64,000 nucleotides of DNA from an uncultured Alistipes sp. (GTDB lineage Bacteria > Bacteroidota > Bacteroidia > Bacteroidales > Rikenellaceae). The translations under genes and the position numbers were made by a program. Positions 27,590 through 36,264 of this stretch are shown in pieces. The notes under the pieces were generated by a model, which ran no database searches, was not told where the DNA came from, and was given only the letters and a program-made list of their open reading frames with translations. How positions within the stretch are numbered: position 1 is the first letter of the stretch; each line of letters begins with the position of its first letter. The stretch spans positions 52,945-116,944 of the forward strand of contig CANBCZ010000004.1 of NCBI GenBank assembly GCA_947367255.1, in the 5' to 3' direction.

Positions 27590-27621
27590 TTGACAAGGGG
27601 GCTTTTTGAGTTATATATTTG
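27590..27621 (+). promoter_or_regulatory. Candidate promoter of the phage-type gene block
   Basis: CTTG, 21 bases, TATATTTG, 136 bp upstream of the first gene. It is the only good plus-strand promoter in the 358 bp gap between mqnA and the block. Confidence 0.55.
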
Positions 27622-27636
27622 CACTGTCAGTCGACG

Positions 27637-27668
27637 GTTATTGACACTTTCTCGATAGTGTCGATAAC
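27637..27668 (+). promoter_or_regulatory. Hairpin or operator in the leader of the phage-type block
   Basis: GTTATTGACACT-TTCTCGAT-AGTGTCGATAAC: a 12 bp stem (one T.G pair), just downstream of the predicted transcription start. It could be an operator dyad for a repressor or a leader hairpin. No T run follows, so it is not a plain terminator. Confidence 0.6.
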
Positions 27669-27756
27669 TTTATTAACAATCGCAACATATTGTAAATCAC
27701 TGCAATATATAGATGTGTTGCGAGGAAATCAACAAAATTATAAACATACAACTACT

Positions 27757-28161
27757 ATGAACCGCAAAAAAATCATTTCGGCGGTGCAGGGGATTTGTGG
27801 CTCTATGGGCTACGAGTTTCGAGTCTCGGACTCGTCCGCACTATCTGCAAAGAGTATGGCGATGCCTGCAGCTGTACTCATTGAACCAAAATTCCACTCT
27901 ATCGAGGGTCGTAACCACGGCAGAATAACCTATCGGACAACCCTCTATCTCTTCGACAGCGGCTCCCGACTCTCGGCAGAGGAGAGGAGCAATCTGCTGG
28001 CACAGATGGAGAACGATATGTTGGATATATTTTCGCAACTATCTGAAAATAAGTCTGTTGCTGTGGTAGATAATCTGCAGATGGACCACTCGATGCACTC
28101 CGTACTCGGCAGGGGTGAGCTCGGGTTGAAGGCGACAGCCGAGGTAGAGATAATCTTTTAA
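27757..28161 (+). CDS. Phage-type structural protein, unknown (possibly head-tail or tail completion)
   Basis: 134 residues from MNRKKIISAVQGICGSMGYEF; the earlier track start precedes the promoter hairpin. The size, the mixed alpha/beta character and the placement at the head of a block of virion genes suggest a small neck, tail-terminator or connector protein, but I do not recognise the family. It contains RTTLYLFDSGSRLSAEERSNLLAQMENDMLDIF, a pattern seen in phage tail-terminator-like proteins; this is an inference. Stop is 13 bp from the next start. Confidence 0.55.
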   Translation: MNRKKIISAVQGICGSMGYEFRVSDSSALSAKSMAMPAAVLIEPKFHSIEGRNHGRITYRTTLYLFDSGSRLSAEERSNLLAQMENDMLDIFSQLSENKSVAVVDNLQMDHSMHSVLGRGELGLKATAEVEIIF

Positions 28162-28173
28162 TGGCGCAGAATT

Positions 28174-29148
28174 ATGGTACGAATTGTAAAACAACCGGAG
28201 AACTTTACCCCGATTGGCGAGGGGTTGATATTTGTTGTTCAGAGTGACGAGAGGTGCGACCTTGAGGTGACTATTATAAACACCCTGACAGGCGAGGAGG
28301 TGGGTCGAAAGCTTATCTATGACACTACCGAGGCGGTGGTAGACATCGCCCCATATATCGCCGGAATGAGTCCGCTTACAGTGCCAAAGCGACACTTTTC
28401 GGAGCTGCTTTCGGCACCCGCTGCCAGCTATATGATTGTGGTGCAGCGCGAGGGCGAGGTGGTGGAGTCTGAAGAGGTGTGGGTGAGCAACAACATTGTC
28501 AAAGAGGGCGTAGGTGTGGCATCCATTTTTGCGACAGAGGAGTGTCGTGAGATTGCCTATGGTGACGATGATGATCTGAAGATTAAGGCTCCGGAGGCGG
28601 GGTTGATCTCGGTAGAGGTGCTCTCCGATATTGGCGAGAGCTACAGCTATAGCATCAACTCTGAGAGCGGTCGAGCGATGTTTCACCTTGGAACGAGGAT
28701 GTTCGATGAGTCGGTAACGCGCATTGTAGTTGAGGTGTACTGCAATGAAGAGTTTCTGCAAAGTATTGATTACGAGATTGTTCCGCGAGGAGCGAACTCG
28801 ATGCGACTGATGTGGTTCTCGCCTATAGGAACGCTTGAGCACCATACATTTGCAGCGACCTTAAGTCGAACATTGGTATCAAAGCAGAGACAGAGATTTG
28901 TGGGCAGTAATGGCGAGGTGTGCAGCTCAATCTCCGCCGAGCAGACGACTATCGGCTCGAAGAGGTGTTCGGAGAGGCTCTTGGCAGCTCTGGCGACAAT
29001 TGTCACAGCCCCAAAGGTGTGGATAGAGCAGGCGGAGGAGTATGTTCCGGCAGCGGTACTTGACAGCGAGGCGGCAATATCGAGACTTGGCGAGGTGGGA
29101 CAACTGTCGGTGACATTAGAGCATAACAGAAAGGAGGTGACACTATGA
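28174..29148 (+). CDS. Phage-type structural protein, probable tail component
   Basis: 324 residues, no signal peptide, beta-rich, with fibronectin/Ig-like stretches (LEVTIINTLTGEEVGRKLIYDTTEAVVDIAPYIAG). The segment RLMWFSPIGTLEHHTFAATLS resembles a conserved patch in Bacteroidetes phage tail proteins. No catalytic motif is visible. It overlaps the next gene by 4 bp (ATGA), so translation is coupled. Function is inferred from context only. Confidence 0.5.
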   Translation: MVRIVKQPENFTPIGEGLIFVVQSDERCDLEVTIINTLTGEEVGRKLIYDTTEAVVDIAPYIAGMSPLTVPKRHFSELLSAPAASYMIVVQREGEVVESEEVWVSNNIVKEGVGVASIFATEECREIAYGDDDDLKIKAPEAGLISVEVLSDIGESYSYSINSESGRAMFHLGTRMFDESVTRIVVEVYCNEEFLQSIDYEIVPRGANSMRLMWFSPIGTLEHHTFAATLSRTLVSKQRQRFVGSNGEVCSSISAEQTTIGSKRCSERLLAALATIVTAPKVWIEQAEEYVPAAVLDSEAAISRLGEVGQLSVTLEHNRKEVTL

Positions 29149-31511
29149 GGCTCTATGTAGATGGCAAGAGTTGTCCGACGGGGGATATTGACAGGGTGCC
29201 GATTGGCTTCTCGCTTGAGGATATGCTCAATCCGCAGGCGGCGTGCAGCGGTCGCAAGATGGAGATGACAATCCCCTCGACAGCAGAGTCAAATGAGATT
29301 TTCGGTGTGGCGCGAGATATATATGCCGCCGAGAGGTTTAACGACTCGCACCATACGGCACGCCTTGAGTGTGATGGCGTTACACTCTTTGAGGGTACTA
29401 TCTATCTGCTCGATGCATCTGTCGGCAGTCGCAGTGGCGGCGACTACAAGGTGCGCATTGTCGAGGGTGGTAAGGATTGGGCGAAGGATGCAGCACGCAG
29501 GGAGCTGAGAAGCAGCGGCATCTGGTTCAATATGGCACTGACGCCTGAGAATATCTGCTCTACATGGGAGGGGGAGCAGTCGGTGCGCTTTCTGCCGGTG
29601 TTGCGCAATCGTTATACTGCCGAGTACTCCGGAGTCTCGCTCGGACCCAAGGAGCAGGTGCTGACGACAGACGACTACCACCCCTTCTTCTCGGTGCCGG
29701 CACTCTTTGAGCGAATATTTCGCGGATATGAGGTGGAGAGTAGTTTTCTGCAGAGCGATGAGTTTCGACAGCTCCTCTTTTCGGGGCAGTATGGCTCACC
29801 CGACACGGCAAAGCAGCAGAAACTACTCGACTTCAAGGCGCGTAGAGCAGCTCCCGTAACGGCTGTGGCAAATGAGTACGGAAAGGTCTATGCAACGGCA
29901 GCATTTGATGATGACGAGTCGTTGGGAAACATTGTCGATACGGCAGATCCGACAGCTGTAGACAGCGACGGCAAGCTGATGCAGGATACATTTACGACGG
30001 GTAATGTCTTCGGAGTGGATGAGGAGGGTTATATCCGCTTTGAGAGTGCGATAGCGGCAAATGTCGGATTTCTGCTGCACCTTGAGTATCAGACCGACTA
30101 CTGCATCGAGAGCAGAACGCGTCTTCGAGGTTTCGATACAGTCGTCTCCGAGCCGATAGTGGAGGCGCACTTCCCGCTAAGCAATGGTTTTAAGGATAAG
30201 CAGAACGAGCTTGTGGCGGGGCTGACCTACAACCTCTGCATATTCGACTATGTGCCGAGCAGCCTCTATATGTTCAAGATCTTTGATCGCGAGACGGGAG
30301 AGGAGTTAGAGAGTCGGGTTATCGACGGCAGGTTTACGCAGATAACGATGCCTGAGGAGTGCAGCCCCGTATGTACGCTTGAGCCGATGCTGGGCGAGTC
30401 GTTGGAGCACAGTGCAGATTGGGCGCTCTACCCCGGACATGTGCAGGAGCGAGGGGTGACGGAGGTGGTGGTAGATATCCGCATACCGCCGCAGGAGTTT
30501 CTGGCGGGCGATAAGATGAGGTTTAATCGCATCAGGTTTCAGGGTGCCGAGCCGGGGATGGCGATTACCCTCTCGACGGAGTGTTCGCTCAGACCATACT
30601 TTACAAATGTGCCCGGTTTCGGCTCGGTGATGGGGCTGACCGATATTGCCCACAACAAGATGTGGCTCATAGAGTTGGTGGAGGCTGTATGTCAGATGTT
30701 CAACCTTGTAATCTACACAGACGAGCGTGCGAAAAGGGTCATTATAGAGCCCGAGGAGGCGTTCTACAGCGACAGAGTGTGGGAGTGGAGCCACAAGATT
30801 GACTACAGCGAACCGCTGCGCATCTCCGACCTTGGTGTGGATGCTCCGCAGTGGGTGGAGCACAGGTACAAGGAGGGCGACTATGCCTCGGCGCAGTACA
30901 ATGAGCAGTACGGAACAGATATTGGCTGTTGGAGGTCGGGAAATCAGGTATATGGTGCGTTGGATACGACCAAAGTGGTTGAGAGTCCGCTGTTTACGAC
31001 GGGTGTAAACAAGTGTGGTGTCTACGCCTTTGCTCCGTCGGCATCGTTGCTGCAGGTGGGCGACAGCGCTGCTGAGGGCGCGATAGATATGCCATTTACA
31101 ACCCATATTGTGCGATATCTCGGGCTTCGACCACTGCCGGAGGGTGAGGTGTGGGGTCCTTTGGGAGAGGCGAGGTATCCTTTGGCGGCATTCTTCTTCG
31201 AGGGTGACGGGCAGACGGAGGGGTTTTCGCTCTGCTTTGAGCCGAGGGATGGTATTGCAGGGTTGAGCCGTTACTTCGAGCAGCACGCCGAGCGAGTGAC
31301 TCGCCGTCAGCGACTTACGGCAACGCTTCGACTCTCGCCGGCAGAGATAGAGTCGTTGCTCTCTGCGGAGAGCGAAGGGGCGACAATTCGCGACACATTC
31401 CGACTGAAACTCTTCAACGAGACCTCGCTCTATCGTCTTGAGAGCATCAGAGGATACAACCCTGCAACTCAAAGTGCAGAGTGTACATTTATCAGACTAA
31501 TGAAGGACTAA
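29145..31511 (+). CDS. Large phage-type tail or baseplate protein
   Basis: 788 residues, the longest gene of the block. The start follows an exceptionally good ribosome binding site (AAAGGAGGTGA, 5 bp before ATG), rare in this genome. It opens MRLYVDGKSCPTGDIDRVPIGFSLEDMLNPQAACSGRKMEMTIPST and has a middle part LIELVEAVCQMFNLVIYTDERAKRVIIEPEEAFY, typical of tail-tip/hub-like proteins of Bacteroidetes siphophages as far as I can judge. No tape-measure gene lies upstream. It may be a receptor- or envelope-contacting hub. Confidence 0.5.
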   Translation: MRLYVDGKSCPTGDIDRVPIGFSLEDMLNPQAACSGRKMEMTIPSTAESNEIFGVARDIYAAERFNDSHHTARLECDGVTLFEGTIYLLDASVGSRSGGDYKVRIVEGGKDWAKDAARRELRSSGIWFNMALTPENICSTWEGEQSVRFLPVLRNRYTAEYSGVSLGPKEQVLTTDDYHPFFSVPALFERIFRGYEVESSFLQSDEFRQLLFSGQYGSPDTAKQQKLLDFKARRAAPVTAVANEYGKVYATAAFDDDESLGNIVDTADPTAVDSDGKLMQDTFTTGNVFGVDEEGYIRFESAIAANVGFLLHLEYQTDYCIESRTRLRGFDTVVSEPIVEAHFPLSNGFKDKQNELVAGLTYNLCIFDYVPSSLYMFKIFDRETGEELESRVIDGRFTQITMPEECSPVCTLEPMLGESLEHSADWALYPGHVQERGVTEVVVDIRIPPQEFLAGDKMRFNRIRFQGAEPGMAITLSTECSLRPYFTNVPGFGSVMGLTDIAHNKMWLIELVEAVCQMFNLVIYTDERAKRVIIEPEEAFYSDRVWEWSHKIDYSEPLRISDLGVDAPQWVEHRYKEGDYASAQYNEQYGTDIGCWRSGNQVYGALDTTKVVESPLFTTGVNKCGVYAFAPSASLLQVGDSAAEGAIDMPFTTHIVRYLGLRPLPEGEVWGPLGEARYPLAAFFFEGDGQTEGFSLCFEPRDGIAGLSRYFEQHAERVTRRQRLTATLRLSPAEIESLLSAESEGATIRDTFRLKLFNETSLYRLESIRGYNPATQSAECTFIRLMKD

Positions 31512-31513
31512 CA

Positions 31514-32338
31514 ATGAATCAGAGAATTAAAATTTCAGCAAACACAACCGTCGCAACGATAGATATCGAGGGCGAAATCGGCTCTGAGCAGTCGGGCGCG
31601 GTGACGACCTACGGCGCACTGAAGGAGAAGCTGCAGCAGATTGAGGAGCTTGAGGCTCCCGTAGTGGTGGTAAATATCCGCTCGGTGGGTGGAGATGTTG
31701 CCGATGCGTTGCTTATCTACGAGGCACTGAGCACTCTGGATGCGCACATCACGACCCGTTGCTACGGCTACACCGCCTCGGCAGCGACGGTTATTGCTCA
31801 GGCGGCAAATGAGGGGTGTCGAGAGATTGCCGACACGGCACTCTACCTTATCCACAACTCTTCGTGCGTAGCAGAGGGTAATGCGGCGGAACTTCAGCAG
31901 CACGCAGAGTTGTTGCAGAAGACTGACGAGAGAATAGCGGCAATATATGCTGCCCACTCGGGTAAGAGTGTCGAGCACTTTCTCTCGCTAATGGCAGAGA
32001 ATGGCGGTAATGGAGTGTGGCTCTCACCCGAGCAGGCGTTGGAGGCGGGGCTGGTAGATAGTATCATCAAGCCCGAGAAGGGTGTAACGACGACCCTTAT
32101 GAGCAGAATAGCCGAGTGGCTCGGCATAAAACCGAAGAGCGTGCCGACAATGCCGACAGACAAGGTGAATATTCGGTCACAGCAGCCTACAGCCTGTTCG
32201 CAGCTCTCCCTGTCGGAGGGTCAGAGTGCTGTGAGCAGGTCGCAGGTAAAGGCTGTGGAGGACCCCGGACTGCAGGGGGATGCACTGAGTGCAAATGCAG
32301 AGGCGTACAACCGTGACGCCATTCTTTTCAGAAACTAA
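31514..32338 (+). CDS. ClpP-like head maturation protease
   Basis: 274 residues from MNQRIKISANTTVATIDIEGEIG; the track start lies in the previous gene. The ClpP/crotonase fold is clear: VVVNIRSVGGDVADALLIYEAL (oxyanion Gly-Gly), CYGYTASAATVIAQAAN with Ser89, and ALYLIHNSSCVAEG with His114. Such S14-type proteases cleave scaffold and capsid proteins during HK97-like procapsid maturation. A C-terminal polar, low-complexity tail (after about residue 195) could serve as a scaffold. It stands directly upstream of the capsid gene, as in HK97-type modules. Confidence 0.85.
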   Translation: MNQRIKISANTTVATIDIEGEIGSEQSGAVTTYGALKEKLQQIEELEAPVVVVNIRSVGGDVADALLIYEALSTLDAHITTRCYGYTASAATVIAQAANEGCREIADTALYLIHNSSCVAEGNAAELQQHAELLQKTDERIAAIYAAHSGKSVEHFLSLMAENGGNGVWLSPEQALEAGLVDSIIKPEKGVTTTLMSRIAEWLGIKPKSVPTMPTDKVNIRSQQPTACSQLSLSEGQSAVSRSQVKAVEDPGLQGDALSANAEAYNRDAILFRN

Positions 32339-32371
32339 CAAAACAAACAACAACTTAAAAAACTTAAAACT

Positions 32372-33334
32372 ATGACTATTGAAAATACAAAGACCTACCG
32401 TGGTGAGGAGGTTGAGAAGATCTTTTTCCGTCCATCTTTTTGTGGTACAGATGTAAATCAGCTCGGCGTGCGAGTGCTATACAATATGCCAATGCCGACA
32501 ACAGTGCAGGTGTGGAGCCGTCCGAAGAATGTCCTGCAGGAGTTTGAGAGCGGCTGGAGTGGCGGCACAAACGGCGAGAAGATGCAGAAGACAATCGATA
32601 TGCGCAGGGTAAAGGCGGAGTCGAAGTTTTCGTCTGAGGACTATGCATCGCTCGTATATGAGAAGATTGTCGGCAACACTGCCGTAAATCAGGGCGATCT
32701 GACAGGTACAGCGTTGGAGCAGGCTGAGACCGAGCTCTTCCGACTTGCCATTGCCGAGAGTGTGCGTTCGACACTCTGGATTGGCGATACAAAGGGCGAA
32801 ATCTCGGACAATACGACATTTGACGGTCTCTTCCGTCACATTGCCGATATGCGCGACGATATTACTGCGGTGGTAATATCAACCTCCGATACAAACCAGC
32901 CGAAGGCGATAGATATGCTCAAGGGGTGTTGGGATCAGGCGACACCGGAGCTCAAGGCTCTGCGCTCGGAGGGTCAGCTGGCATACTTCGTAAGTTCGGA
33001 TGTGTGCAACGGATATATTGAGCAGCTCGACGATTGGGGCACCGATGCGGCGTATATCGATATGGTAAACGGTCGTCAGCAGCTCTTCTATCGCGGTATT
33101 CCGGTGATTGAGGTGCCTCTGAGCGGCTACAATACGAGCAGCTTCACAAACTTCTGTATGCTTACCGACCGCCGCAACCTTGTGCTTGCCCTCAATACTG
33201 CCGATATGCCGGAGAATGAGGTGCGTATGTGGTACAATCCGGACGAGATGGAGAACCGTCAGCGTGCAGTATTCCTTGCGGGTGCGCAGGTGCTCGATCC
33301 TCTGCTTGTATCTATCTACTACACAAACTATTAG
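32372..33334 (+). CDS. Major capsid protein, HK97-fold type
   Basis: 320 residues. The order protease then a roughly 300 aa acidic protein with GDLTGTALEQAETELFRLAIAESVRSTLWIGDTKG, an alternation of helices and strands, and a C-terminal GIPVIEVPLSGYNTSSFTNFCMLTDRRNLVLAL...VFLAGAQVLDPLLVSIYYTNY (nucleotide- or peptide-contacting strand region) fits Bacteroidetes HK97-type capsid proteins. It is preceded by an AT-rich, AAC-rich leader typical of strongly translated genes here. Whether the N-terminus is cleaved cannot be told. Confidence 0.72.
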   Translation: MTIENTKTYRGEEVEKIFFRPSFCGTDVNQLGVRVLYNMPMPTTVQVWSRPKNVLQEFESGWSGGTNGEKMQKTIDMRRVKAESKFSSEDYASLVYEKIVGNTAVNQGDLTGTALEQAETELFRLAIAESVRSTLWIGDTKGEISDNTTFDGLFRHIADMRDDITAVVISTSDTNQPKAIDMLKGCWDQATPELKALRSEGQLAYFVSSDVCNGYIEQLDDWGTDAAYIDMVNGRQQLFYRGIPVIEVPLSGYNTSSFTNFCMLTDRRNLVLALNTADMPENEVRMWYNPDEMENRQRAVFLAGAQVLDPLLVSIYYTNY

Positions 33335-33337
33335 CGT

Positions 33338-33754
33338 ATGGATTACAAACCTGTTGGTGGCGTAAGGAGAGTATCTCTCCGCGCCGCCGATACGGTTGGT
33401 CGCGCAATGGAGAGTGTCGAGGTAGAGCTGATAGATGACGGCTCGACATACAGAGAGGTGCTGAGCGTAGAGAGGGGAAGTGGCGTGGTAAGGCATACGC
33501 TTACCCTCAAGGCGCTCTACAGCAATGCCGAGGCGTGGCTGCAAAGCGAGTTTATCGATATGGCGACACGAACGGGTGTTGTGGCAGAGGTGATGCTCAA
33601 CGACTCGCGACAGGTGACTGTCGGGTTTTCGGAGGCTTTAGGGGTGGAGCAGCCGCTGCGCATAAGGTCGCTCGAGGTGGACTCGGCGCACTCGCCATCG
33701 GAGGTGCCAACCGTAACGCTTGTATTGTGTTGTGAAGGTGTGAATTTAATATAG
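33338..33754 (+). CDS. Phage-type structural protein, unknown
   Basis: 138 residues, beta-rich (VGRAMESVEVELIDDGSTYREVLSVERGSGVVRHTLTLKALYSNAEAWLQSEFIDMATRTGVVAEVMLNDSRQVTVGFSEALGVEQPLRIRSLEVDSA). The start is 4 bp after the capsid stop. Its position between capsid and portal, together with the beta-sandwich look, suggests a decoration, neck or tail protein; no homolog is recognised with certainty. Confidence 0.5.
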   Translation: MDYKPVGGVRRVSLRAADTVGRAMESVEVELIDDGSTYREVLSVERGSGVVRHTLTLKALYSNAEAWLQSEFIDMATRTGVVAEVMLNDSRQVTVGFSEALGVEQPLRIRSLEVDSAHSPSEVPTVTLVLCCEGVNLI

Positions 33755-33764
33755 AGTCTTGAAT

Positions 33765-34979
33765 ATGAGTAAGATAGTAAAAATATGCGGAGCGACATCC
33801 TCGACTCCTGACCCATATATCATCACCTCAAAGAGGGTGGAGAGTAACGAGTTTTGGCGTTGGGGAAGTGACAATCGTCTGCCGAAGTTGCTCTCGACAA
33901 TATCGCGTTGTTCGACAACGCATCGCCGAATAATCAACGACAAGGCGGACTACATAACCGGCAAGGGATTTACATTTGACCAGCAGATCCCGCTTCTTGA
34001 GGCATTTGTAGGACAGGTAAATGGCAGCGGCGAGAGTCTGCGCCAGCTGATAAATAAGGTGGCATTTGATAAGTCGCTCTTCGGAAATGCATTTATCGAG
34101 GTGGTGACGGATGCCGACCATACATTTCTCTCGCTCTACCATCAGGATGCGGTACGATGTCGTGTGGCGAAAGATTCGGAGCACATACTGCTGCACCACG
34201 ATTGGGACAACTACTCGCCAAAGGATGCAATTTGTCTGCCGAGATATCCACTCTTTGAGCAGCAGAGTGATGGTACGCTGCGCTCGATAATTCACTACAA
34301 GGATTATGAGCCGGGATTTGACCACTACGGCGTGCCACCATATATTGCCGGACTTGGCGTGAGTGCAATAGCCTATAAGACAGATCGTTGGAACATCTCA
34401 CGACTTGACAACTCCTTCCAGCCGTCGGGTGTGATGATACTCGACGATGCTGTGGACAACGAGAGCGATGCCGAGCGAATGGTGCGCAGTGCCGAGGAGC
34501 GATTTGCCGGCAGACCGGGTCAGGTGATGTTTATCGTAAAGGATGGCAGTGATAATGATAACTCTCGATTTGTGCCTATATCGACGGCGAGTGACGGCGA
34601 TTGGGAGTCGCTCCATACGCAGGCGACAAACGATATTGTCGTGGCGCACTCGTGGTTTCGTTCGCTCAGCGGACTGGACTACTCGACGGGTTTCAACTCC
34701 GAGCGAATACTGCACGAGTACGAGATTGCCCTCAATACGGTAATTCTGACCGAGCAGGAGGAGTTGCTTGAGCCGCTCAGAGAGTTGCTGACGAATATCC
34801 TGCAGGTGGATGCCTCGTCGTTGGAGTTTGTAAATCGTCCGCCGACGCGCTCGAAGCCTATATATATGAAGGTGTGGGAGGCTCGCAAGGCGGATGGTCT
34901 CGACTACGACCCTGAGGATAAGGAGCAGCAGTACTATCTCTCCGAGATAACGAAGTATAACGTAACAAAGATTGGATGA
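33765..34979 (+). CDS. Phage portal protein
   Basis: 404 residues from ATG 33765 (the track start is a TTG 6 bp upstream). Portal features: DNRLPKLLSTISRCSTTHRRIINDKADYITGKGF near the N-terminus, FDKSLFGNAFIEVV, YRVPPY-like YGVPPYIAGLGVSAIAYKTDRWNISRLDNSFQPSGVMIL and EYEIALNTVILTEQEELLEPLRELL helices. Portals form the 12-subunit ring for DNA entry and exit at one capsid vertex. It ends ATGATGA, overlapping the next gene. No large terminase, the usual partner, is seen next to it. Confidence 0.8.
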   Translation: MSKIVKICGATSSTPDPYIITSKRVESNEFWRWGSDNRLPKLLSTISRCSTTHRRIINDKADYITGKGFTFDQQIPLLEAFVGQVNGSGESLRQLINKVAFDKSLFGNAFIEVVTDADHTFLSLYHQDAVRCRVAKDSEHILLHHDWDNYSPKDAICLPRYPLFEQQSDGTLRSIIHYKDYEPGFDHYGVPPYIAGLGVSAIAYKTDRWNISRLDNSFQPSGVMILDDAVDNESDAERMVRSAEERFAGRPGQVMFIVKDGSDNDNSRFVPISTASDGDWESLHTQATNDIVVAHSWFRSLSGLDYSTGFNSERILHEYEIALNTVILTEQEELLEPLRELLTNILQVDASSLEFVNRPPTRSKPIYMKVWEARKADGLDYDPEDKEQQYYLSEITKYNVTKIG

Positions 34980-35452
34980 TGAAGACAATTATAGATGTGG
35001 AATCGGTGCTCACCCTTGCCTTCGCAGAGGCGGAGCACCTGAGTCGCGAAGTGGTTGGTAGTACCGATATTCTTGTGGCGACGGAGCGTTATATCACCCC
35101 GATTTTGGGGCAGAAGATGGTCGATGCCCTCACAGAGGGCAAGTATTGCGATTTTGCTGAGAAGTATGTAGCCCCGGCACTCGCCTTTGCTGTAAGGTCG
35201 GTTATCCAGCCGGCGATAAATCTCAGGCTCGGAGATAGCGGGCTTGTTGCTCCACGAGGTGAGGCGATGGAGCAGCCGAATGGAGAGGCGGTGAAGGGGT
35301 TGAATCGTTCGCTAAAGATAAGAACGCGACAACTGCTCAAGCGACTCTCGGAGGCTGTAGAGCAGAATAAGGGTCAGTTTGTTGAGTATGAGTCGAAGTG
35401 TAACATTTTTAACCGTTGTTCGATAGATGGAGGAGTTGTTCAGATTTTTTAA
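34976..35452 (+). CDS. Head-tail connector-type protein
   Basis: 158 residues, mostly helical (SVLTLAFAEAEHLSREVVGSTDILVATERYITPILGQKMVDALTEGKYCDFAEKYVAPALAFAVRSVIQPAINLRL). Small helical proteins just after the portal are normally connector/adaptor proteins (gp6-like). This is an inference from size, fold and place. It overlaps the portal stop by 4 bp and the holin start by 26 bp. Confidence 0.6.
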   Translation: MMKTIIDVESVLTLAFAEAEHLSREVVGSTDILVATERYITPILGQKMVDALTEGKYCDFAEKYVAPALAFAVRSVIQPAINLRLGDSGLVAPRGEAMEQPNGEAVKGLNRSLKIRTRQLLKRLSEAVEQNKGQFVEYESKCNIFNRCSIDGGVVQIF

Positions 35453-35855
35453 GATGCTGCTCATCTCGTTGTTGTCGCTCTTTGCGCCTGTTAAACCATT
35501 GATATACTGCGCATTGGTATTTGTGCTGATAGACTTTGTTACCGGCGTGGCGGCATCAAGAGCTGTAGCAAAGCGCGAGGGTAGGAGTTGGTATTTCGAG
35601 AGTCGCGAGGCGTGGAGAACCCTCTACAAGGGTGGATTTGTCGTGATGGCGATAGGGATGATGTGGATCCTTGAGAGTTGCGTGCTCGACTTTATGACTC
35701 TCAACCTGACAAAGCTCTTTACGGGGTTTGTATGCTCGGTGGAGCTGTGGTCATTTCTTGAGAATGCCGCGCAGCTCTCGGATACTCCACTCTTTGAGTG
35801 GATGAGAAGATATTTGCATCGTAGAATTGAAAACCAGATAGACAATGTCAAGTAG
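35427..35855 (+). CDS. Phage holin family protein
   Basis: 142 residues with three or four predicted membrane helices (PLIYCALVFVLIDFVTGVAASRAVAKREG, TLYKGGFVVMAIGMMWILESCVLDFMTLNLTKLFTGFVCSVELWSFLEN), the layout of Bacteroidetes phage holins. Holins open the inner membrane at lysis so that the lysin can reach the cell wall. It sits directly before the lysin, with an 11 bp overlap. Confidence 0.82.
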   Translation: MEELFRFFKMLLISLLSLFAPVKPLIYCALVFVLIDFVTGVAASRAVAKREGRSWYFESREAWRTLYKGGFVVMAIGMMWILESCVLDFMTLNLTKLFTGFVCSVELWSFLENAAQLSDTPLFEWMRRYLHRRIENQIDNVK

Positions 35856-36264
35856 AGGTTTGAGAAACAGAAATCCGGGAAATATTCGCCGCTCGAAGGT
35901 GCACTACAAGGGCGAGAAGGAGTTTTCGACAGATAGTGCATTTAAGCAGTTTGAGACCCTGGAGGCGGGCTATCGTGCGATGTTCGTATTACTCCATACT
36001 TATCGCGTAAGAGGTTATGGCTCAACCATTTCGCAGATGATTGCTCGTTATGCTCCGCCGTCGGAGAACAACACCGAGGCGTATATTGCCAGAGTTGAGA
36101 GGATGTCGAAAATTGATCGTCATACGCCTCTCGACACCCTTTCGGAGGAGCAGATGGTGCCCGTTGTATGTGCAATGTCGGCAGTTGAGAATGGAGTTGT
36201 TGCCGAGAGGGCAGCAGTAGAGCGCGGCTGGCAGATGTTTGTTGCCGACTTTGCAAAAAAATGA
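35845..36264 (+). CDS. Probable phage endolysin ('structural protein P5'-type, lysozyme-like)
   Basis: 139 residues opening RGLRNRNPGNIRRSKVHYKGEKEF, followed by FKQFETLEAGYRAMFVLLHTYRVRGYGSTISQMIARYAPPSENNTEAYIARVERMSKI. This RGLRNxNPGNIR ... TI..ii.rwAPp.ENNT.aYi pattern belongs to a phage protein group often labelled 'structural protein P5' and related to lytic transglycosylase-like lysins. Next to a holin, a cell-wall hydrolase is the best reading. It is the last gene of the block; the following gene starts 12 bp later. Confidence 0.75.
   Translation: MSSRGLRNRNPGNIRRSKVHYKGEKEFSTDSAFKQFETLEAGYRAMFVLLHTYRVRGYGSTISQMIARYAPPSENNTEAYIARVERMSKIDRHTPLDTLSEEQMVPVVCAMSAVENGVVAERAAVERGWQMFVADFAKK

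Follow-up and report, generated by a model that had tools for sequence, protein, structure and literature searches.

Gene content of the block

We analyzed a stretch of 64,000 nucleotides (hereafter the window; positions 52945-116944 of contig CANBCZ010000004.1, C4) from the draft genome of an uncultured Alistipes sp. (G000; 2.07 Mb, 94% complete, 59 contigs). Between positions 27757 and 36264, the window carries a block of phage-type genes that, together with an unlinked locus encoding a large terminase (TerL) and a repressor, probably encodes a particle resembling gene transfer agents (GTAs). The original prediction had described the block as ten intact plus-strand genes, which was borne out by reading the open reading frames (ORFs): all ten are intact and lie on the plus strand, with small gaps or overlaps between neighbors (Table 1).

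The protease, portal, connector, holin, and lysin proposed for the block were recovered by profile searches. The protease g4 also matched the Clp_rel_HeadMat model (1e-32, slightly below the model cut-off), and its serine motif G[YF]xASA is kept in 108 of 110 homologues. The capsid g5 gave only a weak profile match (phrog_1623, 1e-6). Its AlphaFold model (pLDDT 79) retrieved HK97-fold phage capsids as the best Foldseek matches (E 1.8e-11, probability 1.0), and the matches include capsids of phages, GTAs, and encapsulins, with the RcGTA capsid 6tb9 at 1.6e-9. By this structure prediction, the assignment of g5 as an HK97-fold capsid is confirmed. PDB profile searches with the capsid and g3 found no relative. 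For g1, g2, g3, and g6, no named family was found in the profile databases searched. They are labeled tail-like because of their position in a homologous prophage (see below); the tail-like proteins of the original prediction thus stand by position, but no database names them.

As had been stated, the block is without integrase, replication, or tape-measure genes, and it also lacks a terminase gene. The region from 26.8 to 37.2 kb contains 57 direct-repeat families; among the 20 largest of these, all imperfect, none brackets the block as an att-like duplication, again in agreement with the initial description.

Table 1. Coordinates and assignments of the block genes and of the region upstream of them (window positions)
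Feature	Position	Strand	Assignment	Basis
Block promoter	27590..27622	+	TTGACAAGGGGG-N-TATATTTGC, strong Bacteroidota-type form	Read in window sequence
Leader with TTWTYRACA 9-mer cluster	27623..27756	+	Putative regulatory array	Sites 27638-27646 (+), 27659-27667 (-), 27670-27678 (+)
g1	27757..28161	+	Candidate tail terminator-like protein, 134 aa	Homologue at matching relative position in prophage G006:C31, L063:19469-19885
g2	28174..29148	+	Phage-derived, fast-evolving, 324 aa, tail/baseplate-like by position	Prophage homologue L050:410-1333; median dN/dS 0.62
g3	29145..31511	+	Phage-derived, large, 788 aa, tail hub/baseplate-like by position	Prophage homologue L050:1330-3984
g4	31514..32338	+	ClpP-type head maturation protease	phrog_94 2e-45; PF00574 1e-28
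g5	32372..33334	+	HK97-fold major capsid protein (predicted structure)	AlphaFold model and Foldseek
g6	33338..33754	+	Candidate tail-tube-like protein, 138 aa	Prophage homologue L050:9085-9600, 171 aa, between capsid and portal
g7	33765..34979	+	Portal protein	PF04860 3.5e-11; phrog_11226 3e-23
g8	34976..35452	+	Head-tail connector-type protein (DUF6712)	PF20459 4e-8; directly 3' of portal in every locus
g9	35427..35855	+	Holin (Phage_holin_4_1)	PF05105 1.5e-12
g10	35845..36264	+	Endolysin	phrog_873 1.6e-35

Conservation, gene order, and selection

A portal alignment was scanned against 85,462 species genomes. The best 80 relatives were all records of Alistipes, Tidjanibacter, or unnamed Rikenellaceae, including the isolates Alistipes sp. 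An66, A. montrealensis kh20, and Alistipes sp. Marseille-P5061, which identifies the source genus as Alistipes in the GTDB sense. Of 180 Alistipes species genomes, 172 contain the portal; among the 70 with at least 90% completeness, the figure is 68. It nearly always occurs as one full-length copy, with an internal stop in two among the matches listed. The gene order is invariant in the 91 loci spanning g3 to the lysin gene, and the genes are intact as single ORFs in 80 of 80 (capsid), 80 of 81 (portal), 73 of 74 (holin), 68 of 69 (lysin), and 69 of 76 (g3) loci. Most genes of the block are under purifying selection (dN/dS 0.19-0.44). Median pairwise values (NG86, pairs with dS 0.1-1.2) were 0.19 for the portal, 0.28 for the holin, 0.29 for the lysin, 0.32 for the protease, 0.34 for g3, 0.35 for the capsid, and 0.44 for the connector, and reached 0.62 and 0.67 for g2 and g6, respectively. 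The capsid, portal, and protease are the genes for which this check had been proposed, and all three gave the expected low values.

The genes g1 and g6 are both present in 41 of the 91 loci and both missing in 39. Eleven loci, some of which end at contig edges, have g6 alone, and none has g1 without g6. The two genes have thus been jointly lost in about half of the species. The flanks vary by subclade: corA and mqnA adjoin the block in many genomes and other genes in another group. A conserved position in relatives, as predicted, was therefore found within subclades, but across the genus the block occupies more than one chromosomal site. No terminase or tape measure was recognized in the fetched flanks (mostly 10 kb) of about 90 loci; the tape-measure model is weak and was built from few sequences, and this absence holds within about 10 kb of the block. 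In G392, a member of another Rikenellaceae genus (L241), no holin or endolysin gene adjoins the block, and several secreted-type proteins of about 900 aa are encoded after the connector gene.

These data bear on the idea that the block is a satellite or helper-dependent element, such as a capsid-forming phage-inducible chromosomal island (PICI), or a slowly decaying prophage that merely seems fixed. Alistipes genomes do contain true prophages, some with related heads (e.g., on contig C31 of genome G006, see below), which could act as helpers. But no block has an integrase nearby, the order is fixed in all 91 loci, the frames are intact, and nearly all species carry exactly one block, with distances that agree with those of the host. 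Disabled genes, patchy presence, and dN/dS near 1, the marks of a decaying remnant, were not found for the block, nor did the loci read contain, in or near it, the integrase or att sites, replication genes, or site mobility of a temperate prophage. We regard this explanation as largely refuted and extremely improbable. Varied positions next to integrase and terminase genes, or absence or pseudogenization in most strains, had been named beforehand as outcomes that speak against domestication. In relatives, no block adjoins an integrase or terminase or is pseudogenized, but there is more than one site, and two good genomes lack the block.

A second locus with repressor, c2, and large terminase

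The original prediction had proposed a search for a lone large terminase elsewhere in the genome. A search with the TerL family phrog_38 was positive for 95 of 101 Alistipes genomes, mostly with a single match. Among 20 TerL neighborhoods that were read, two represented extra prophage copies, and the remaining 18 had one common layout (locus 2): the gene of a ~224-aa HTH-S24 (S24/CI-type) repressor is divergent from that of a ~95-aa protein, termed c2, which is followed by terL. The presence of c2 in all 18 loci was established by profile. The same layout was found in the Alistipes genomes G181 and G201, in the single-contig genome G188, and in the tested Rikenellaceae of other genera, where c2 of G392 was recognized by eye; TerL was detected in all four sampled portal-carrying genomes of such genera (E < 1e-229). 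The statement that terminase and regulators are missing therefore holds for the block itself, but not for the system, which has a conserved TerL and repressor at a second site.

The functional residues of both proteins are invariant in 22 of 22 sequences. For TerL, these are the Walker A motif PPQHGKS, D162-D163, and the Asp/Glu residues of the nuclease region, and for the repressor, S135 and K178 together with the cleavage pair A99-G100. The small protein c2 (e.g., L189:10611-10904) is always encoded between repressor and TerL and had no match in PDB, Pfam, or PHROGs. We considered c2 as a small terminase (TerS), but its predicted fold is confidently alpha-beta (pLDDT 92) and not that of a helical TerS, again with no PDB match.

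In the genome of the window itself, no TerL scored in the phrog_38 search, and a search with PF03354 likewise gave no match. The repressor gene is present at C4:91-762, its product being 92% identical to the repressor of G003, and lies only 91 bp from the contig end. The missing TerL is therefore most plausibly explained by the end of the assembly, beyond which the gene would be expected to follow immediately. A 529-aa terminase encoded on contig C17 (L031, G000:C17:1-3138; PF03237) was rejected as a partner of the block, being found in only 10 of 101 genomes. It is a second, unrelated large terminase whose gene lies at a contig end beside a small phage-type gene. Copies with 99% identity occur in a few other Alistipes species, and most species have none. 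This near identity combined with a patchy distribution indicates that it belongs to a recently mobile prophage.

The two loci are unlinked in most genomes. On the contig of the window, the repressor gene is about 80 kb away from the block, and in G188, the portal gene is located at about 1.26 Mb and terL at about 3.27 Mb. Since more than a megabase separates them, no single particle could carry both loci. In G392, g1 follows terL on the same strand at a distance of about 4 kb that includes host genes.

Origin and co-descent with the host

Genome G006 holds its own domesticated block and, in addition, a complete prophage on contig C31 (L063, L050, L064) with integrase, repressor, replication genes, a reverse transcriptase of the diversity-generating retroelement (DGR) type, TerS, and TerL. 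Its structural genes comprise, in this order, a g1 homologue, a 117-aa gene, and homologues of g2 and g3, with the tape measure (893 aa) encoded immediately after the g3 homologue. Protease, capsid, the counterpart of g6, portal, and connector come next, and then a small gene of membrane type and others. This siphophage and the IMG/VR entry UViG_3300001596_000105 (L157) share with the block the order g2-g3-...-protease-capsid-g6-portal-connector, and their portals are 45-51% identical to the block portal. Unlike the block, both have a tape measure, and the G006 prophage further differs from it by its integration, regulatory, replication, reverse transcriptase, and terminase genes. Judged by gene content and order, the block is a module of this prophage type without its tape measure, packaging genes, and a small number of others, and of the candidates for the ancestral phage type, the G006 prophage is the best.

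A maximum-likelihood tree places the 22 Rikenellaceae TerLs of locus 2 in one clade (100/99), adjoined by the TerL of the G006 prophage and one IMG/VR sequence. The closest named phages by TerL are siphophages of Bacteroides fragilis such as B40-8 and B124-14, with about 51% identity. A very long branch within the Alistipes rows of the portal tree (VIR_L158) was treated as an artefact. Mantel tests (raw distances, about 22 genomes) against the host gene rlmN gave r = 0.84 for the portal, 0.80 for TerL, and 0.82 for the repressor, and portal and TerL distances were correlated with each other at r = 0.77 (p = 0.0002 in each case). The repressor distances likewise follow those of portal and TerL. 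Of 393 sampled Bacteroidales genomes, 15 contain the portal, and five of these, including the genome of the window, are Rikenellaceae. The remaining matches were weaker, and a TerL of the locus 2 type was found in none of the best four of them. Taken together, the block has a single origin and co-diversifies with its host. The best explanation is that the system became fixed before the sampled Rikenellaceae diverged.

The two loci could also have been domesticated independently; the block would then encode a separate particle, and TerL and repressor would form, for example, a module for defence or recombination. Their lack of linkage in most genomes, the lack of a detectable common operator, and the retention of locus 2 alone in G181 and G201 would fit this explanation. 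Against it, both share the same phage-type ancestry, with both parts present in the G006 prophage, both are near-universal in one family with agreeing distances, and they lie close together on one strand in G392. We therefore consider independent domestication very unlikely.

A DNA-free use of the capsid comparable to that of encapsulins (storage, enzyme compartment, or decoy), with the distant TerL serving another role, appears similarly improbable. It would agree with the presence of encapsulins, which are HK97-fold shells, among the Foldseek matches of the capsid, and with the lack of a cargo-specific packaging partner in the block. But encapsulins, as lone shells with neither portal nor terminase, need none of the portal, connector, head protease, holin, and endolysin, all of which are conserved with the shell and under purifying selection, and the co-conserved, co-diversifying TerL stems from the same phage lineage.

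Promoter and leader of the block

A promoter is found directly upstream of the leader of the first block gene (Table 1). The pattern TTGACAA-N13..19-TANNTTTG is present within 330 bp 5' of this gene in 59 of 98 loci. The leaders are enriched in the 9-mer TTWTYRACA: 135 copies were counted in 47 distinct leaders, compared to 2.5 +/- 1.5 in dinucleotide shuffles, and the background elsewhere in one complete relative is about 1.1 copies per 20 kb. This cluster is probably a regulatory array. We also considered an RNA hairpin, but by eye the inverted 9-mers often mispair (C-A in several species), yet both still match the 9-mer. Conservation of the motif despite broken pairing makes a protein-binding array likelier.

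Many TTWTYRACA copies differ from the DnaA box by one base. The leader motif may represent an array of DnaA boxes, although oriC could not be located.

Discussion

Domestication of a phage-derived particle maintained by selection, as originally proposed, is strongly supported by its near-universal single copy, dN/dS values, constant gene order, and co-descent with the host. We think it likely that the block and the unlinked locus 2 together encode a GTA-like, DNA-packaging particle that originates from a domesticated phage and is released by lysis. The computed results comprise the homologies, a constant architecture of two loci, a single origin, co-descent with the host, purifying selection, and the intact motifs of motor and protease. 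Beyond these, we infer that both loci serve one particle, that it packages host DNA, and that it is induced by damage and delivers its DNA to other cells. We compared the system with the definition of GTAs given in PMC9662315. Its two fixed loci, which lack integrase and replication genes, correspond to full endogenization, which often involves several loci. The Mantel correlations, the single TerL clade, and the presence in 172 of 180 genomes agree with vertical inheritance and co-diversification with the host. An origin of the proteins from caudoviricetes is evident for capsid fold, portal, protease, and TerL, as read from the genes. The definition further calls for caudovirion-like particles that mostly enclose random pieces of host DNA, have a head too small for the complete GTA genome, and deliver their DNA to other cells (PMC9662315); for the Alistipes system, these features are predictions. 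We therefore refer to it as a GTA-like candidate and not as a GTA.

The most likely mode of action is GTA-like and can be outlined. A signal, perhaps DNA damage acting on the Ser-Lys autocleavage domain of the repressor, would lift the repression of c2 and terL. By analogy to other S24 repressors, self-cleavage upon DNA damage may be expected. The block would be expressed from its own strong promoter with the leader array, and protease, capsid, and portal would build a small prohead. TerL would then fill this prohead with host DNA, apparently in a process lacking an obvious sequence-specific small terminase. Finally, holin and endolysin would lyse the cell and release particles. A short or absent tail is suggested by two observations, namely that no tape measure is found with the block and that half of the species have lost g1 together with g6.

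Several points weigh against a GTA-like function. The system is known from its genes alone, with particle, DNA packaging, and transfer being predictions. No TerS could be recognized, c2 being an alpha-beta protein, and no operator common to both loci was found. Near the block, none of the species showed a tape measure, and half of them have lost g1 and g6, so that there is no obvious route of DNA delivery. In the high-quality genomes G181 and G201, locus 2 is kept, but portal and capsid are absent; these two are natural knock-outs of the block, so that its loss is possible. Moreover, a three-donor long-read study of gut virus-like particles, in which Rikenellaceae were abundant in total DNA, reported GTA-like events only in Gram-positive families (PMC12946183).

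Another candidate function is a killing particle like PBSX of Bacillus subtilis, i.e., phage-derived and under repressor control, packing host DNA or none, and killing related strains with no transfer of genes. PBSX is likewise a set of defective phage-like particle genes fixed in the chromosome; where it is cited in PMC12946183, it is described as packing about 13 kb of random host DNA, and it has a full contractile tail and kills (PMC12946183). Repressor control and host lysis are compatible with such a particle, as is the weak match of the portal to the PBSX portal model (TIGR01540, 1e-15, below cut-off), and the fast evolution of g2 and g6 might be expected of receptor-facing or target-adapting parts. 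Unlike PBSX, the block in Alistipes lacks both sheath and tape measure, which together with the loss of g1 and g6 makes a working killing tail unlikely in the species that lost them. Furthermore, no immunity or effector gene accompanies the block. We therefore judge a killing particle to be unlikely, and favor the GTA-like one.

Similarities to established GTAs exist at several levels. The RcGTA-like elements (Rhodogtaviriformidae) and the Alistipes block have in common an HK97 capsid, head protease, portal, lysis genes, and co-descent with the host. In RcGTA, the tail is complete and includes a tape measure, and the host proteins CtrA and GafA act as regulators. The capsid model matches RcGTA structurally (6tb9), but at the level of sequence, the searches detected no relationship. 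BhGTA (VSH-1) of Brachyspira (Brachygtaviriformidae), for which particle production and gene transfer are proven, resembles the Alistipes system in its genus-wide, vertically inherited head and lysis cluster with a single conserved terL outside of it (PMC9662315). In both cases, TerL forms its own clade away from phages. However, no homology between the two was recognized by any search made, and the Alistipes terL, unlike that of BhGTA, is tied to a dedicated repressor and a small gene. FpGTA I/II of Faecalibacterium also come from a gut commensal, albeit of a different phylum (Bacillota), and share with the Alistipes system two loci, lysis genes, the lack of integrase and replication genes, and a tail that is probably short or absent (PMC12946183). 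In FpGTA, the head operon is accompanied by TerS and TerL, holin and endolysin belong to the second locus, and the particles were observed to contain about 8.5 kb of DNA (PMC12946183). In Alistipes, the lysis genes are next to the head genes and TerL is elsewhere, and in contrast to BhGTA and FpGTA, gene content is what is known of it.

Pieces of the block locus also occur in public virus records. MT838805 and MT838736 (L396, L397), two unannotated GenBank scaffolds of 'Bacteriophage sp.' from Mexican fecal samples, are such pieces, and MT838736 joins the host gene mqnA to the block. Judging from country and source only, both appear to stem from a study in which DNase-treated virus-like particles of Mexican children were sequenced (PMC8361208). 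The DNA in MT838736 could be packaged or contaminating and is a weak hint of host-DNA packaging. IMG/VR likewise lists pieces of the chromosomal Alistipes block as viruses (L147-L154). The cataloging of pieces of a chromosomal locus as phage in IMG/VR and GenBank is a matter of data quality. Since its motor sits elsewhere, the system may also be overlooked or mislabeled by prophage callers.

Our searches of a library of 5.4 million papers for literature on Alistipes, Rikenellaceae, or Bacteroidetes combined with gene transfer agents, transductomics, or domesticated prophages found no description of this system. The balance tips slightly toward a further, independent way of building a GTA, which would date back to the ancestor of the sampled Rikenellaceae and be the first of its kind in Bacteroidota. 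In it, the motor would be placed in its own repressor-controlled and possibly damage-inducible locus, and the head and lysis operon would lie elsewhere under its own promoter and array. Past or ongoing loss of the long tail would leave DNA particles with a short tail or none, released by lysis in a gut genus that is very common. Known GTAs come from few lineages, and Bacteroidota dominate the gut and have very high rates of gene exchange. If our interpretation is correct, this would be the first such system in this phylum, for which we found none described. It would provide a concrete route of gene transfer in Alistipes and an independent case for studying why bacteria keep lytic, DNA-packaging particles.

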